The position numbers were made by a program, and so were the translations under genes. The notes under the pieces are model-generated. The model made no database searches. It saw nothing but the letters and a program-made list of their open reading frames with translations, and had not been told where the DNA came from. From Streptomyces sp. ICBB 8177 (GTDB lineage Bacteria; Actinomycetota; Actinomycetes; Streptomycetales; Streptomycetaceae), in the NCBI RefSeq assembly GCF_003144095.1, contig NZ_NSKH01000003.1:1-64000 (forward strand): a stretch of DNA of 64,000 nt, given 5' to 3'. This document shows positions 34,998-38,780 of the stretch, piece after piece (position 1 is the first letter of the stretch; each line of letters opens with the position of its first letter).

Positions 34998-35564
34998 ATG
35001 ACCCGGCGGGCTGAGAACGGCGGCGGGCCCTCCTCCTCGGGGGCGGAGCAGGGACCGCCACGCGATCCCGAGGAGCGGGCACGGGCGGTGTGCCTCCGCC
35101 TGCTCACCGGGACGCCCCGGACCCGCAAGCAACTCGCCGACGCCCTGCGCCGCCGGGAGATCCCCGAAGAGGTGGCGGAACACGTGCTGTCCCGCTTCGA
35201 GGATGTCGGACTGATCGACGACACGGCCTTCGCGGACGCGTGGGTGGAGTCCCGCCATCACAGCCGGGGTCTCGCCCGGCGCGCGCTCGCCCGGGAACTG
35301 CGCACCCGGGGGGTCGAGTCCGGCGTGATCGAGCGCGCGGTGGAGCAGCTCGACGCGGACCAGGAGGAGGCGACGGCCCGCGCCCTGGTCGACCGCAAGC
35401 TGCGCGCCACCCGAGGCCTCGACCGCGACCGGCGCATACGTCGCCTCGCGGGCATGCTCGCCCGCAAGGGATACGGGGAGGGGCTGGCCCTGAGGGTGGT
35501 CCGCCGGGCGCTGGAGGAGGAAGGCGAGGACGCGGAGTTCCTCAAGGGGTACCTGCCGGAGTAG
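34998..35564 (+). CDS. recX: regulatory protein RecX
   Basis: RecX modulates the RecA filament. The 188-residue protein has three tandem three-helix RecX repeats, with CLRLLTGTPRTRKQLADALRR near residue 35, FEDVGLIDDTAFADAWVESR near 70 and the late RIRRLAGMLARKGYG segment. It starts 3 bp after recA stops, so the two are co-transcribed and regulated by the SOS box. Confidence 0.96.
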   Translation: MTRRAENGGGPSSSGAEQGPPRDPEERARAVCLRLLTGTPRTRKQLADALRRREIPEEVAEHVLSRFEDVGLIDDTAFADAWVESRHHSRGLARRALARELRTRGVESGVIERAVEQLDADQEEATARALVDRKLRATRGLDRDRRIRRLAGMLARKGYGEGLALRVVRRALEEEGEDAEFLKGYLPE

Positions 35565-35614
35565 GCGCGCACCGGCCCTCGTCGATCGCTGAGGGACGGG
35601 AGGCGACAGTGACG

Positions 35615-36043
35615 TCAGTGGCCTTCGTGAGTGCCGTCCCGGAACGTGCTCGGCGGGGTGACGGGGAGACCCGCCGCGCGCCAGGACTGGAAGCCGCCTT
35701 CGAGGTCGGTGGCCCGGTGCAGGCCGAGCGCCTGGAGGGAGACCGCCGCGAGGCTGGAGGCGTAGCCCTCGTTGCAGATCACGACAGGCGTGATGTCGTG
35801 GTCCACCGCTTCCGGGAGGCGGTACGGGCATCGCGGGTCGAGGCGCCATTCCAGCTCGTTGCGTTCGACGACCAGGGCGCCGGGGATCGTGCCGTCGCGG
35901 TCCCGCAGAGCCGCGTAGCGGATGTCGACCAGCAAGGCGCCCTCCGCGGCGGCGGCCTGCGCCTGGTGGGCCGTCAGGCGGTCCAGGCCCTCGCGGGCCC
36001 GGGCCAGCAGTTCGTCGATGCCCAGGGGGCGAGGGAGGGTCAC
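35615..36043 (-). CDS. rhodanese-like sulfurtransferase
   Basis: The 142-residue single rhodanese domain has the active-site cysteine in VVICNEGYASS (about residue 90) and the substrate loop after it, with LLVDIRYAALRDRDGTIPGA as the N-terminal CH2A-like motif. It transfers sulfane sulfur to a thiol or cyanide acceptor. Two adjacent GTGs (36046, 36043) are possible starts; 36043 is chosen because it is better spaced from GGAGGA and overlaps the cysteine dioxygenase stop in GTGA, giving a coupled two-gene operon for cysteine and sulfur catabolism. Confidence 0.9.
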   Translation of the reverse strand: MTLPRPLGIDELLARAREGLDRLTAHQAQAAAAEGALLVDIRYAALRDRDGTIPGALVVERNELEWRLDPRCPYRLPEAVDHDITPVVICNEGYASSLAAVSLQALGLHRATDLEGGFQSWRAAGLPVTPPSTFRDGTHEGH

Positions 36044-36564
36044 CACTCCTCCGGGCGTTCGACGAGTTCGAGGCGCAGGACCTGACCACGCCTGCTGTAA
36101 CGGCGCATCAGGGGGAGCGGCGGATAGTAGGCGTGGACCGAGATCGCGTGGTGGTTGTCGGAGGCGTTGACGACCTGGTGGACGTGGTGCGGGCCGAAGG
36201 CGCGGCCCTGGCCGGGCGAAAGGCTGCGGACGCGGTCGACGTCGGTGGCGAGTTCGAGGGAGAGCCAGCCCGCGCCGGGCAGCGGTACGGAGACGGACTG
36301 CTCGGCGAGTTCGCCCGTTGCGGTGACGAACGCGCCACGGGAGCCGCCGTGGTCGTGCCAGCCCGTCTCGGCTCCCGGAGGCCAGCCGATGAGCCAGGCC
36401 TCGCTGCCGCCGGGACCCTGCAACCGCAGCCAGGTGCGGCCCTCAGGATCGAGCGGCAGGCGGCCGACGACGTCGGGGTCGGCGGCGGTACGGCGGGCGA
36501 AGTCAAGGAGTTCGTCGACGGTCGGCGCGGACGACGGCGCGGACGCGGAAAGGGTGTGCGGCAA
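36040..36564 (-). CDS. cysteine dioxygenase
   Basis: The enzyme oxidises cysteine to cysteine sulfinate with a mononuclear iron. The 174-residue cupin protein has the iron motif H70-x-H72 in GWHDHGGSRGAF and a second histidine cluster near 126-129 (PHHVHQVVN). The start is a TTG at 36564 with no clear ribosome-binding site, so the N terminus is not certain. It is the first structural gene of a minus-strand operon with the rhodanese. A cysteine-rich leader ORF and a hairpin precede it, which suggests cysteine-responsive control. Confidence 0.92.
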   Translation of the reverse strand: MPHTLSASAPSSAPTVDELLDFARRTAADPDVVGRLPLDPEGRTWLRLQGPGGSEAWLIGWPPGAETGWHDHGGSRGAFVTATGELAEQSVSVPLPGAGWLSLELATDVDRVRSLSPGQGRAFGPHHVHQVVNASDNHHAISVHAYYPPLPLMRRYSRRGQVLRLELVERPEEW

Positions 36565-36592
36565 AGGGGACCGTCCCGGTGATCGCGAAAGT

Positions 36593-36610
36593 GCGCGGAG
36601 AACTCCGCGC
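36593..36610 (-). promoter_or_regulatory. hairpin between the cysteine leader ORF and cysteine dioxygenase
   Basis: A perfect 8-bp inverted repeat (36593-36600 with 36603-36610, 2-nt loop) lies 29 bp upstream of the cysteine dioxygenase start and 26 bp after the leader stop. It could be the attenuator structure that responds to ribosome stalling on the leader. Confidence 0.5.
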
Positions 36611-36636
36611 GAGAAGGGTTCAGGAGAACTGGCGCG

Positions 36637-36723
36637 TCAACAGGACGGGCGACACACGCAGCCCGCGTAGCGGACGAGGTCCAGATGGACCCTCCGCACG
36701 AGGCGCAGTTGGGTGTCGGTCAC
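36637..36723 (-). CDS. cysteine-rich leader peptide (leaderless uORF)
   Basis: A 28-codon ORF, too short for routine ORF lists, reads V-T-D-T-Q-L-R-L-V-R-R-V-H-L-D-L-V-R-Y-A then GCVCRPSC and TGA. Cysteine codons cluster at the end (three of the last seven). The LVRR-VHLDLVRYAGCVC pattern matches the actinobacterial putative leader peptides found upstream of sulfur genes. In mycobacteria such polycysteine ORFs are leaderless and act as cysteine-responsive attenuators. Here GTG 36723 has no ribosome-binding site, and a -35/-10 pair predicts a transcription start at the GTG. The cysteine dioxygenase starts 72 bp downstream. Confidence 0.85.
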   Translation of the reverse strand: MTDTQLRLVRRVHLDLVRYAGCVCRPSC

Positions 36724-36730
36724 GTTTCGG

Positions 36731-36760
36731 AGTGAACCACGGGCTTCGCCGCAGGGTCAA
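36731..36760 (-). promoter_or_regulatory. promoter of the leader-cysteine dioxygenase-rhodanese operon
   Basis: On the minus strand, TTGACC (36760-36755) and TTCACT (36736-36731) are separated by 18 bp. Only 7 nt lie between the -10 and the leader GTG at 36723, so transcription should begin at the start codon. Confidence 0.65.
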
Positions 36761-36971
36761 CCAGGGGCGGTATCGGGCGAATCCTTGTCGCAGACACGCA
36801 TTCCGGCGCAGCACCTCCCCCCAGCCCCTGAGCCCCTAGCCACCGGTCCCCCCGAAGCCGCCCACGGAAGCCTCCCCCCGAAGCCGCCCCAGTCCCGAAG
36901 CCCGCCCGCACGAGCCTCGCACCTGCCCCGCCCAGGTCCCCGCACCGCAAGCCCCGCGCGGAGCCCCCGCC

Positions 36972-38780
36972 TCACCCGCCCCCACGTCGCTCCCCGCCGC
37001 TGCCGCTCGCGCCGGCCATGCCCGCGTCGGCGGACGTCGCGCCGTCCCGCGCGCCCCCGCTCGCCTCCCGGTCGCCCTGCGATGCCCGGTGGGGTGGAGG
37101 GCCGCCGCGGGCCAGGTCGGCGTAGGCGTACAGCTCCGCCGGCCGGCAGCCGGTCATCGCGCCGACGAGGTGGCCGTCGGGCCGCACCAGCAGCACGGTG
37201 TGCGCGGTGGCGCCCGGGTAGGACTCGGTGACCAGCAGTTCGGTGCGGGTCGGCAGGGCGGAGACGGCGGCCGACAGCTGCGGCATCAGCCCGGCGGTGA
37301 GCCAGTGGCGGCTCTCCCAGACCCCGGTGCCGGGAGCGACCAGGACGGCCAGCAGGTCGCGCCCGAGCCGGTCGCGAAGGCGCCCGCGCACGCCGTCCAG
37401 ATCGATGACCGGCACGTCGTCCACCATCTCCCCGGGCACCCCGGCGCCCGGCGCGACCAGCGGCGAAGGCGCCGTCTTGCCGCCGCGCGGCGCGGGCAGG
37501 ACCAGCGGGGAGCGGTCGTAGGCCGGGGGAGCGCCGAGCAGTCCGCGGCCGAAGGGGGCGTCGGTGAGGAGTTCGGCGTGGCGGTTCATCGGACCGGACA
37601 GCAGCGAGTGGCGCAGGGTGTGCCAGGCGCCGTTGGCCCGCAGCGGGGGCAGGGCCTGGTCGGCGGCGCGCAGCCGGGTGCCGACCGCGCCGCGGCGTTC
37701 CGCCTGGTAGCTGTCGAGCAGGACGTCGGAGGCGCCGTGGTGCCAGGCGAGGGCGAGCTTCCAGGCGAGGTTGTCGGCGTCGCGCAGTCCCTCCTCCAGC
37801 CCCTGGGTGCCCAGCGCGCCCAGCAGGTGCGCGGCGTCACCGGCCAGGAACGCCCGGCCGGTGCGCCACCGCCGGGCCAGCCGCTGGTGGACCGGATACT
37901 CGGACCAGCCCAGCAGTTCGTACGCCGGGATCGTGCCCTCGCACCAGGCGGACAGCGTGGCGCGGATGCGGGCCACCAGGCCGTCCGGGGTCAGCGGCGC
38001 CATGCCGGTCGGCAGGGACCAGTCGAGCCGCCAGACGCCGCCGGGCAGCGGCCGGGCGGTGGCCTCGGTGCCGCGTGCGCCGGGAGGATCGCGGTGCAGC
38101 AGCGCGGTGCCGGGTTCGGGCAGGGCGACGCGCAGGGCGGCGACGGCGTAGCGGTCGACGGCGGTGCGGCCGGGGAAGCGGACGTCGAGCAGTTTGCGCA
38201 CGGTGGAGCGCGGGCCGTCGCAGCCGACCAGGTACGAGCCGCGCCACCAGGTCTCAGGACCGCCCCCGGTGCCCCGGGTGTGGACGCTGACGCCGTGGTC
38301 GTCCTGTTCGACGGCGGTCAGGCGGCAGCCGTGCGCCACCGTGATCAGCTCCTGGCCGGCGAGTGCCTCGTGCAGTCCGTGGCGCAGTCGGTCCTGCGCC
38401 AGGTGCAGCGGAGAGGGCCCGGCGTCGACGGTCTCGGCCTCCTCGCCGGAGTCGTCCGCCACGCCCACCGCGCCCGCCGCCCCGCCCGCCACCAGGCCCG
38501 CGGTGTCCGGACCTGACGAGAAGACCGCCGTGCCGATCACCTGGCGCCGGCGCAGCGTCCGCCACGCCGTCCAGCGCGCGGCGTCGGTGTGCACGGCGGT
38601 GTAGCCGAGGCGGGCGAGCAGGTCGGCGGTGCGCGGGCGCAGGACGGCGGTGCGTTCCGCGCGCGGTTCGGCGCCCGGGCCCTCCTCGTCGAGCAGGACG
38701 ACGGGAACGTTGTGCCGGGCGAGGCAGAGCGCGAGGGACAGGCCGGTCGGCCCCGCCCCCGCGACGATCACCGGGTCCAT
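36972..38780 (-). CDS. FAD-dependent aromatic monooxygenase (PheA/TfdB type)
   Basis: The 602-residue flavoprotein has the N-terminal dinucleotide motif VIVAGAGPTGLSLAL, a DG-type motif around VGCDGPRSTVRKLL and the second FAD motif RAFLAGDAAHLLGALGTQGLEEGLRDADNLAWKL. A C-terminal thioredoxin-like domain (about 460-570) follows, as in phenol hydroxylase-type and rifampicin monooxygenase-type enzymes. The substrate cannot be read from sequence. ATG 38780 was chosen at the start of the FAD domain; an open frame continues to 38921 without coding character. It is divergent from a two-component system. Confidence 0.9.
   Translation of the reverse strand: MDPVIVAGAGPTGLSLALCLARHNVPVVLLDEEGPGAEPRAERTAVLRPRTADLLARLGYTAVHTDAARWTAWRTLRRRQVIGTAVFSSGPDTAGLVAGGAAGAVGVADDSGEEAETVDAGPSPLHLAQDRLRHGLHEALAGQELITVAHGCRLTAVEQDDHGVSVHTRGTGGGPETWWRGSYLVGCDGPRSTVRKLLDVRFPGRTAVDRYAVAALRVALPEPGTALLHRDPPGARGTEATARPLPGGVWRLDWSLPTGMAPLTPDGLVARIRATLSAWCEGTIPAYELLGWSEYPVHQRLARRWRTGRAFLAGDAAHLLGALGTQGLEEGLRDADNLAWKLALAWHHGASDVLLDSYQAERRGAVGTRLRAADQALPPLRANGAWHTLRHSLLSGPMNRHAELLTDAPFGRGLLGAPPAYDRSPLVLPAPRGGKTAPSPLVAPGAGVPGEMVDDVPVIDLDGVRGRLRDRLGRDLLAVLVAPGTGVWESRHWLTAGLMPQLSAAVSALPTRTELLVTESYPGATAHTVLLVRPDGHLVGAMTGCRPAELYAYADLARGGPPPHRASQGDREASGGARDGATSADAGMAGASGSGGERRGGG

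Follow-up and report, generated by a model that had tools for sequence, protein, structure and literature searches.

A conserved leader peptide with an invariant UGU codon precedes the cysteine dioxygenase-rhodanese operon of Streptomyces and is a candidate cysteine-tRNA sensor

Introduction

Polycysteine leaderless short open reading frames (ORFs) of mycobacteria, which are of the Ms5788A type (NCBIfam NF042933), are reported second-hand (Canestrari 2020) to attenuate translation according to cysteine availability. Candidate cys leader peptides have also been described in Mycobacterium, Propionibacterium and Bifidobacterium (PMC1262725), and several leader peptides of Streptomyces lividans are transcribed leaderless, some of them without a clear terminator (PMC8079986, available excerpts). 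The table of eight S. lividans leader peptides in those excerpts calls none cysteine-dependent and places none before a cysteine dioxygenase (CDO) gene; the metL peptide, which contains cysteine, is called methionine-dependent. Among the matches listed in a search of the open-access literature, none deals with a cysteine leader of Streptomyces or with one before CDO.

Here we describe a leader ORF which lies ahead of a CDO-rhodanese operon in the window, meaning the whole stretch of 64,000 nucleotides analysed. Like the mycobacterial polycysteine leaders it is short, contains cysteine, probably has a leaderless start and carries the core RR.[VI]D..R.....C; poly-Cys leaders from relatives in the class (L203, L205, L206) also have TGT at the core position. 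Unlike them it lacks a run of cysteines, its target is annotated as cysteine-degrading and its score against NF042933 is below threshold (18.2 bits, cut-off 45). It shares with the leaders of PMC1262725 the cysteine codons by the stop and the absence of an obvious intrinsic terminator, but those leaders, in the portions of the paper available, have runs of cysteine codons and belong to cys and cbs operons, and no Streptomyces cys leader is named there. Of the features noted in S. lividans, a leaderless transcript is predicted for the leader in the window, and a clear terminator is lacking there too. The new parts are a single invariant UGU codon and an anti-Shine-Dalgarno sequence built of leader codons, the kind of mechanism being known from mycobacteria.

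Results

The locus and its promoter

The features of the locus are listed in Table 1. The 28-codon minus-strand ORF ending in GCVCRPSC and the -35/-10 pair with 18-bp spacing, both described in the initial annotation, were recovered, and the pair gains weight from comparison with relatives: of 140 distinct upstream sequences, 133 have TTGAC 35–37 nt ahead of the leader start and 124 have a TGsTnnAsT block starting at -17 to -15. Because the position of TTGAC is conserved to this extent, the sequence makes a leaderless transcript from the leader GTG likely. A generic sigma-70 promoter scan did not report the TTGACC/TTCACT pair. Many CDO loci also have, ahead of the -35 element and about 43–47 nt from the leader start, a recurrent, moderately conserved GTGAC block that is perhaps a transcription-factor site.

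Table 1 Features of the leader-CDO-rhodanese locus and positions of related leaders in the same genome.
Feature	Coordinates	Strand	Remarks
-35 element TTGACC	36755..36760	minus	sequence; TTGAC conserved in relatives' upstreams
-10 element TTCACT	36731..36736	minus	18-nt spacer, then 7 nt to GTG; predicted transcript start at the GTG
Leader ORF VTDTQLRLVRRVHLDLVRYAGCVCRPSC	36637..36723	minus	28 codons, GTG start, C-terminal end GCVCRPSC
Core Cys codon TGT	36652..36654	minus	proposed sensor; TGT in 155/155 CDO leaders
Anti-SD CCGUCCUG	36641..36648	minus	within last leader codons; pairs with CDO SD in predicted fold
Apical 8-bp hairpin of sequestering structure	36593..36610	minus	perfect inverted repeat; predicted fold
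CGCG and UCA segments	36580..36587	minus	predicted to pair with CGCG (36636-36633) and UGA (36639-36637) at leader stop
CDO Shine-Dalgarno (SD) CGGGACGG	36571..36578	minus	6 nt ahead of TTG start
CDO family protein	36040..36564	minus	174 aa, TTG start; Pfam CDO_I 138.5 bits
Rhodanese-domain protein	35615..36046	minus	overlaps CDO end; Pfam Rhodanese 49.3 bits
Other NF042934 leader	G000:C17:152018-152071		
Other NF042934 leader	G000:C22:225064-225108		
Other NF042934 leader	G000:C20:163107-163157		
Other NF042934 leader	G000:C11:303325-303375		
Other NF042934 leader	G000:C24:241642-241689		
Other NF042934 leader	G000:C17:608199-608252		

A rhodanese match was found downstream of CDO in 137 of the 144 loci with room for one. 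The solved chains nearest to the window's CDO (8qfl-8qfr) and the CDO of B. subtilis are both distant from it. The gene next upstream of the leader (38921-36972, minus strand) encodes a FAD-binding protein (PF01494, 162 bits) and ends about 250 nt before it. A scan of positions 36400-36900 for intrinsic terminators found none, so that nothing in this interval corresponds to a trp-type transcription attenuator; the inverted repeat at 36593-36610 was rejected as a terminator on the absence of a U run. A search of positions 35500-37500 with the Rfam covariance models gave 0 matches up to E 1, on which an Rfam riboswitch was rejected.

Conservation of the leader

We compared the leader to known families and to related genomes. 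It matches the whole of the NCBIfam profile NF042934 (positions 1–19 of 19) with 28 bits, narrowly over the cut-off of 27; in the genome search the leader scored 26.5 bits, or 27.1 with its neighbours. NF042934 is titled 'putative leader peptide' (cis_reg_atten) and names no mechanism in the entry as shown. Seven leaders in this genome scored over the cut-off, the window's included. The other six precede SsuE (an FMN reductase, whose match is over its own cut-off), an arylsulfotransferase, a sulfite/nitrite reductase-type protein, a ThiS-like protein followed by what we read as a CysM-like ORF, a rhodanese and an SsuC-like permease. To judge by these sequence matches, the targets look sulfur-related or of assimilation type. 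The arylsulfotransferase is an unusual target for such a leader. Neither of the other two CDO genes of this genome (L265, L266) has the leader motif within 700 nt.

A family-wide search covered 61 genomes, of which the 38 strongest CDO loci were read and weaker or partial matches left out. A related leader was found ahead of 28 of the first 30 loci and, after the addition of 8 more and with two divergent leaders counted, ahead of 36/38 including the window's locus (35/37 without it), and this association of leader and CDO is not due to chance. A pattern scan of named genomes, which required Cys at codon -2 and allowed TGC as well as TGT at the core position, found at least 119 leader loci; CDO lies downstream in 115 of these and the other four end 38–161 nt after the leader stop. 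The 80 titles among the matches listed belong to Streptomyces, Kitasatospora, Actinacidiphila and Streptantibioticus, with one 'Actinobacteria bacterium'. Across a sample of the class, 79 of 118 genomes had a leader match at E 1e-4. By-eye comparison of 41 class genomes outside the family with CDO_I genes found no same-strand leader directly before CDO among the leader matches listed, which reach down to about E 1e-5; genome G171 has a leader about 400 nt from a CDO gene, on the opposite strand.

CDO leaders carry 1–4 cysteine codons and no cysteine run, and the window's leader has no adjacent cysteine codons. The description of the leader as cysteine-rich in the initial annotation is thus apt in part, as 7 of the 155 CDO leaders read hold one cysteine codon alone, in a count that begins 22 codons ahead of the core. 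Among 41 leaders with distinct peptides the residues R-13, D-9, R-6 and C0 never vary, and they are encoded there by five, two, four and one codons respectively. Y-5, G-3 and C-2 are typical of the CDO subgroup, part of which also has the anti-SD tail; codon -2 is Cys in 27/36 CDO leaders of the family set and in 17/41 leaders of mixed classes. Divergent leaders before CDO were also seen (L048, L049, also L043 and L045), of which L048 and L049, the remaining two of the 38 loci, are Cys-rich small ORFs outside the pattern, the motif of L048 being shifted.

An invariant UGU codon

The core cysteine codon is TGT in 155/155 CDO leaders read (128 distinct sequences) and in 73/73 non-redundant leaders of all classes, poly-Cys ones included, although the leaders are related sequences and these counts do not represent independent events. 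Elsewhere in these 73 leaders cysteine is encoded by TGC in 99 cases and by TGT in 18, and UGU is also rare in the genes of the window (TGC 112, TGT 12). Six loci fetched with NF042934 or NF042933 gave no motif and were left out of the 73; two of them are CDO leaders with M before D, and these read TGT. The divergent L048 departs from the rule, with TGC at the core position and TGT one codon earlier; it and L049 do not have the core pattern and are outside the 155.

The base which follows the core UGU is almost always a base other than G: C in 33, T in 7 and G in 1 of the 41 leaders distinct by peptide, and C in 103, A in 21, T in 4 and G in 0 of the 128 distinct CDO leaders. G follows 58 of the 124 cysteine codons in the window's genes. 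The tRNA predictions, made on 58 stretches that take in the 63 tRNA matches of the genome, gave GCA as the only anticodon for cysteine, so UGU should be read by wobble. Wobble reading probably makes UGU the slower cysteine codon. With UGU at the regulatory position and UGC at most other cysteine positions, hungry ribosomes would pile up at UGU, and the conserved R-13, D-9 and R-6 may assist the stall from the exit tunnel.

Complementarity between the leader tail and the CDO Shine-Dalgarno

Following the core cysteine codon, CCGUCCUG (36648-36641) is complementary to CGGGACGG (36578-36571), with one G-U pair. We looked for such complements by comparing the 18 nt that follow UGU with the last 20 nt ahead of the CDO start in 150 loci, as 5 of the 155 have no usable CDO start (four end early, the fifth is L179). 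Perfect complements of at least 8 nt were found in 90/150, compared to 0/148 with the region -45 to -25, 1/150 with an earlier part of the leader and 0/150 with the stretch after the stop. The mean duplex energy for 98 loci with the CRPSC tail was -17.2 kcal/mol, versus -9.1 ± 2.6 for tails shuffled from 20 of these loci. NGGACGG lies within 26 nt of the CDO start in 123/150 loci, and in 109 of these 123 the predicted probability of tail-SD pairing exceeds 0.5; for the window it is 0.99999. The predicted fold of the window's locus (-83.3 kcal/mol, z -3.35) was equalled in stability by 0 of 200 shuffles. At the leader stop it pairs UGA with UCA and CGCG with CGCG; the hairpin at 36610-36593 caps the structure. 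This 8-bp hairpin, which the initial annotation placed between leader and CDO, is present as a perfect inverted repeat, and is not a separate element but the tip of the fold which is predicted to sequester the SD.

Synonymous positions inside the helix are fixed (Pro CCG 99/106, Ser TCC 106/106), whereas the Arg codon just outside it varies (CGC 51, CGT 41, CGG 10, CGA 4). For comparison, the genes of the window use CCC 387 and CCG 593 times, and TCG 284 and TCC 329 times. We also analysed covariation in 50 aligned leaders out of 121 prepared loci. Here 88.4% of cells were paired, compared to 30–50% when the arms were slid, but there was no excess over shuffles (the pairing was reached by 311/500 and the covariation score by 127/500), and both helix arms are nearly invariant. 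An anchored count in 123 loci reached 951 paired cells, barely above the highest value among 1000 shuffles (950). RNAalifold favours a different consensus, where the tail pairs with GCGGG within the leader and compensatory change is absent. Covariation as proof of the tail-SD helix is thus not supported.

The tail is confined to part of the family. RPSC, RPSR or RPSF was found in 14/36 CDO loci of the family sample; a looser tail rule, which defines the class of 127 loci used below, also admits L040 and L051 and brings this to 16/36. Tails ending TAAR form SD duplexes no better than shuffles (-11.6 vs -13.4). CDO leaders of this kind, without an anti-SD tail, include L023, L024, L026, L027, L029, L030 and L122; the CDO SD of L027/L122, CAGGGTGGTAACCC, could self-fold beside the start, possibly as a different read-out.

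Computed effect of a stalled ribosome

A stalled ribosome was modelled as a 27-nt mask with UGU in the A site. In the window, opening the CDO site is computed to cost 15.9 kcal/mol without the mask and 8.2 with it, and across the 127 loci with this tail type the mean falls from 15.6 (free) to 11.5 kcal/mol, with a drop of at least 2 kcal/mol in 93 loci and a rise in 4. With a control mask placed 36 nt earlier, 11 of the 127 loci fall and 15 rise. The step occurs as the A site moves between 6 and 3 nt before UGU, and a stall at the cysteine codon two codons earlier (UGC in the window) gives no opening (16.1 vs 15.6 kcal/mol free). A mask at the leader stop codon also opens the site (10.5 kcal/mol); a ribosome there would be expected to open it but to leave.

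None of 23 CDO loci with other tails opened by 2 kcal/mol at UGU. As RPSC, RPSR and RPSF tails are also limited to the minority of family-sample loci given above, the predicted read-out by unmasking of the SD is specific to a clade. Among the leaders of all classes, 17/66 open by at least 2 kcal/mol and 3 close (7 of the 73 have no downstream gene call), so it is not common to all leader classes either. Sequestration by the tail as a general property of every leader of the family was rejected on the TAAR duplexes, the all-class opening and the other tails.

Discussion

We consider that a translation attenuator which senses cysteine-tRNA probably controls the CDO-rhodanese operon. The proposal in the initial annotation of a leader of the cysteine-attenuator kind, probably with a leaderless start, is supported by the conservation described above. 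We infer the following course of events from the sequences and the computed folds. Transcription would start at the leader GTG, so ribosomes would load on the 5' end. While cysteine-tRNA is plentiful, they would finish the leader and leave, CCGUCCUG would pair with CGGGACGG and the operon would be off, with the apical hairpin and the extra base pairs around the leader stop adding to the sequestration of the SD. When charged tRNA-Cys is scarce, a ribosome would wait with UGU in its A site and cover the anti-SD, so that the CDO site opens and the operon is on. Reinitiation after the leader was considered and appears unlikely, as the spacers between leader and CDO are long and variable.

The sign of the response follows from the computation in which a ribosome stalled at UGU unmasks the CDO SD, and CDO should be on when cysteine-tRNA is scarce. 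In this model the sign is most likely that of the assimilation genes, and of the mycobacterial attenuators as reported second-hand. The initial annotation had argued that, for genes which break down cysteine, the sign should be reversed; this found no support, as the same family precedes assimilation-type genes and the modelled stall opens the CDO site. The paradox from which that argument set out is real. The benefit of inducing a cysteine-degrading enzyme under cysteine scarcity is not obvious, and this counts against the attenuator reading.

That difficulty would disappear if a TnaC-like arrest were at work, in which the nascent chain with R-13, D-9, R-6 and C0 would sense abundant cysteine or a sulfur metabolite and the arrested ribosome would unmask CDO, switching it on in excess and giving it a sensible role. 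The four residues are invariant, yet the R and D codons vary synonymously, as for a function at the level of the peptide, and some leaders have a single cysteine. Two papers on growth on feathers report cdo induction on cysteine-rich keratin: in a feather-degrading Streptomyces two CDO genes were up 50- and 8-fold, and in another feather-grown strain both CDO genes were up at 96 h, none of them being matched to the recA-linked CDO in the accessible text of these studies. In the second study, however, sulfate-reduction genes were up together with CDO. Arrest is also at odds with the presence of the same leader family before assimilation-type genes in this genome, with second-hand reports of related mycobacterial leaders as attenuators responding to cysteine availability, and with the preference for UGU, which indicates decoding rate. 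We regard it as unlikely. It is very improbable that the leader is translated with no regulatory effect on CDO and that its complementarity to the SD merely results from codons and an SD sequence which are conserved for other reasons: covariation not above shuffles would fit this, but the length of the complement exceeds that in three control regions, synonymous sites are frozen within the helix and free just outside it, and UGU is invariant.

Two further readings keep a response to cysteine shortage and alter how it is read out. The first cysteine codon might turn the switch into a band-pass, in which severe starvation would stall ribosomes at UGC, with the site closed, and moderate limitation, with UGC read and UGU slow, would open it. 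The mean opening costs in the 127 loci (16.1 kcal/mol when the A site lies 6 nt short of UGU, 11.5 at UGU) and the cysteine at codon -2 in most CDO leaders of the family set agree with this. That cysteine is not special to CDO, however, as it also occurs in leaders of mixed classes, and the separation may be small because one tRNA serves both codons, so we think a band-pass rather improbable. Control might also lie at the level of transcription, with Rho-dependent termination after the leader being blocked by the stalled ribosome instead of the SD being sequestered. The leader stop and the CDO match lie anywhere from 58 to 440 nt apart, many leaders have no tail-SD pairing, and a Rho mechanism is proposed for mycobacterial cys leaders in the available part of PMC1262725; the SD of the window is directly sequestered in the predicted fold, which makes Rho a doubtful explanation here.

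Beyond the attenuator at this locus, we tentatively suggest, with somewhat more doubt than belief, that a single-codon sensor sets an actinobacterial sulfur regulon. An invariant, wobble-read UGU, held at a fixed distance behind the R-13/D-9/R-6 chain and hardly ever followed by G, would gauge cysteine-tRNA by its decoding rate rather than by a cysteine run; the Streptomycetaceae would have wired a cysteine-catabolic operon into this system, the window's clade using the last leader codons as anti-SD. If this is true, the choice between UGU and UGC at a single codon should set the expression of a whole group of sulfur genes. Lack of cysteine would then induce the CDO-rhodanese operon, whose role would have to be reconsidered. 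Possible roles would then include the scavenging of sulfur from other thiols, the supply of sulfite and the release of nitrogen. The more than 100 natural leaders in Streptomyces and its relatives provide a ready set for studies of codon-specific stalling.

From the gene order near recA, we take SCO5772, annotated as 'putative cysteine dioxygenase', to be the counterpart of the window's CDO. The homologue of SCO5772 in S. venezuelae, Sven_5427, is reported in the accessible text to be more than 5-fold up under nitrogen starvation in a GlnR-dependent manner. Nitrogen may thus act on the operon through transcription, and cysteine-tRNA through translation.
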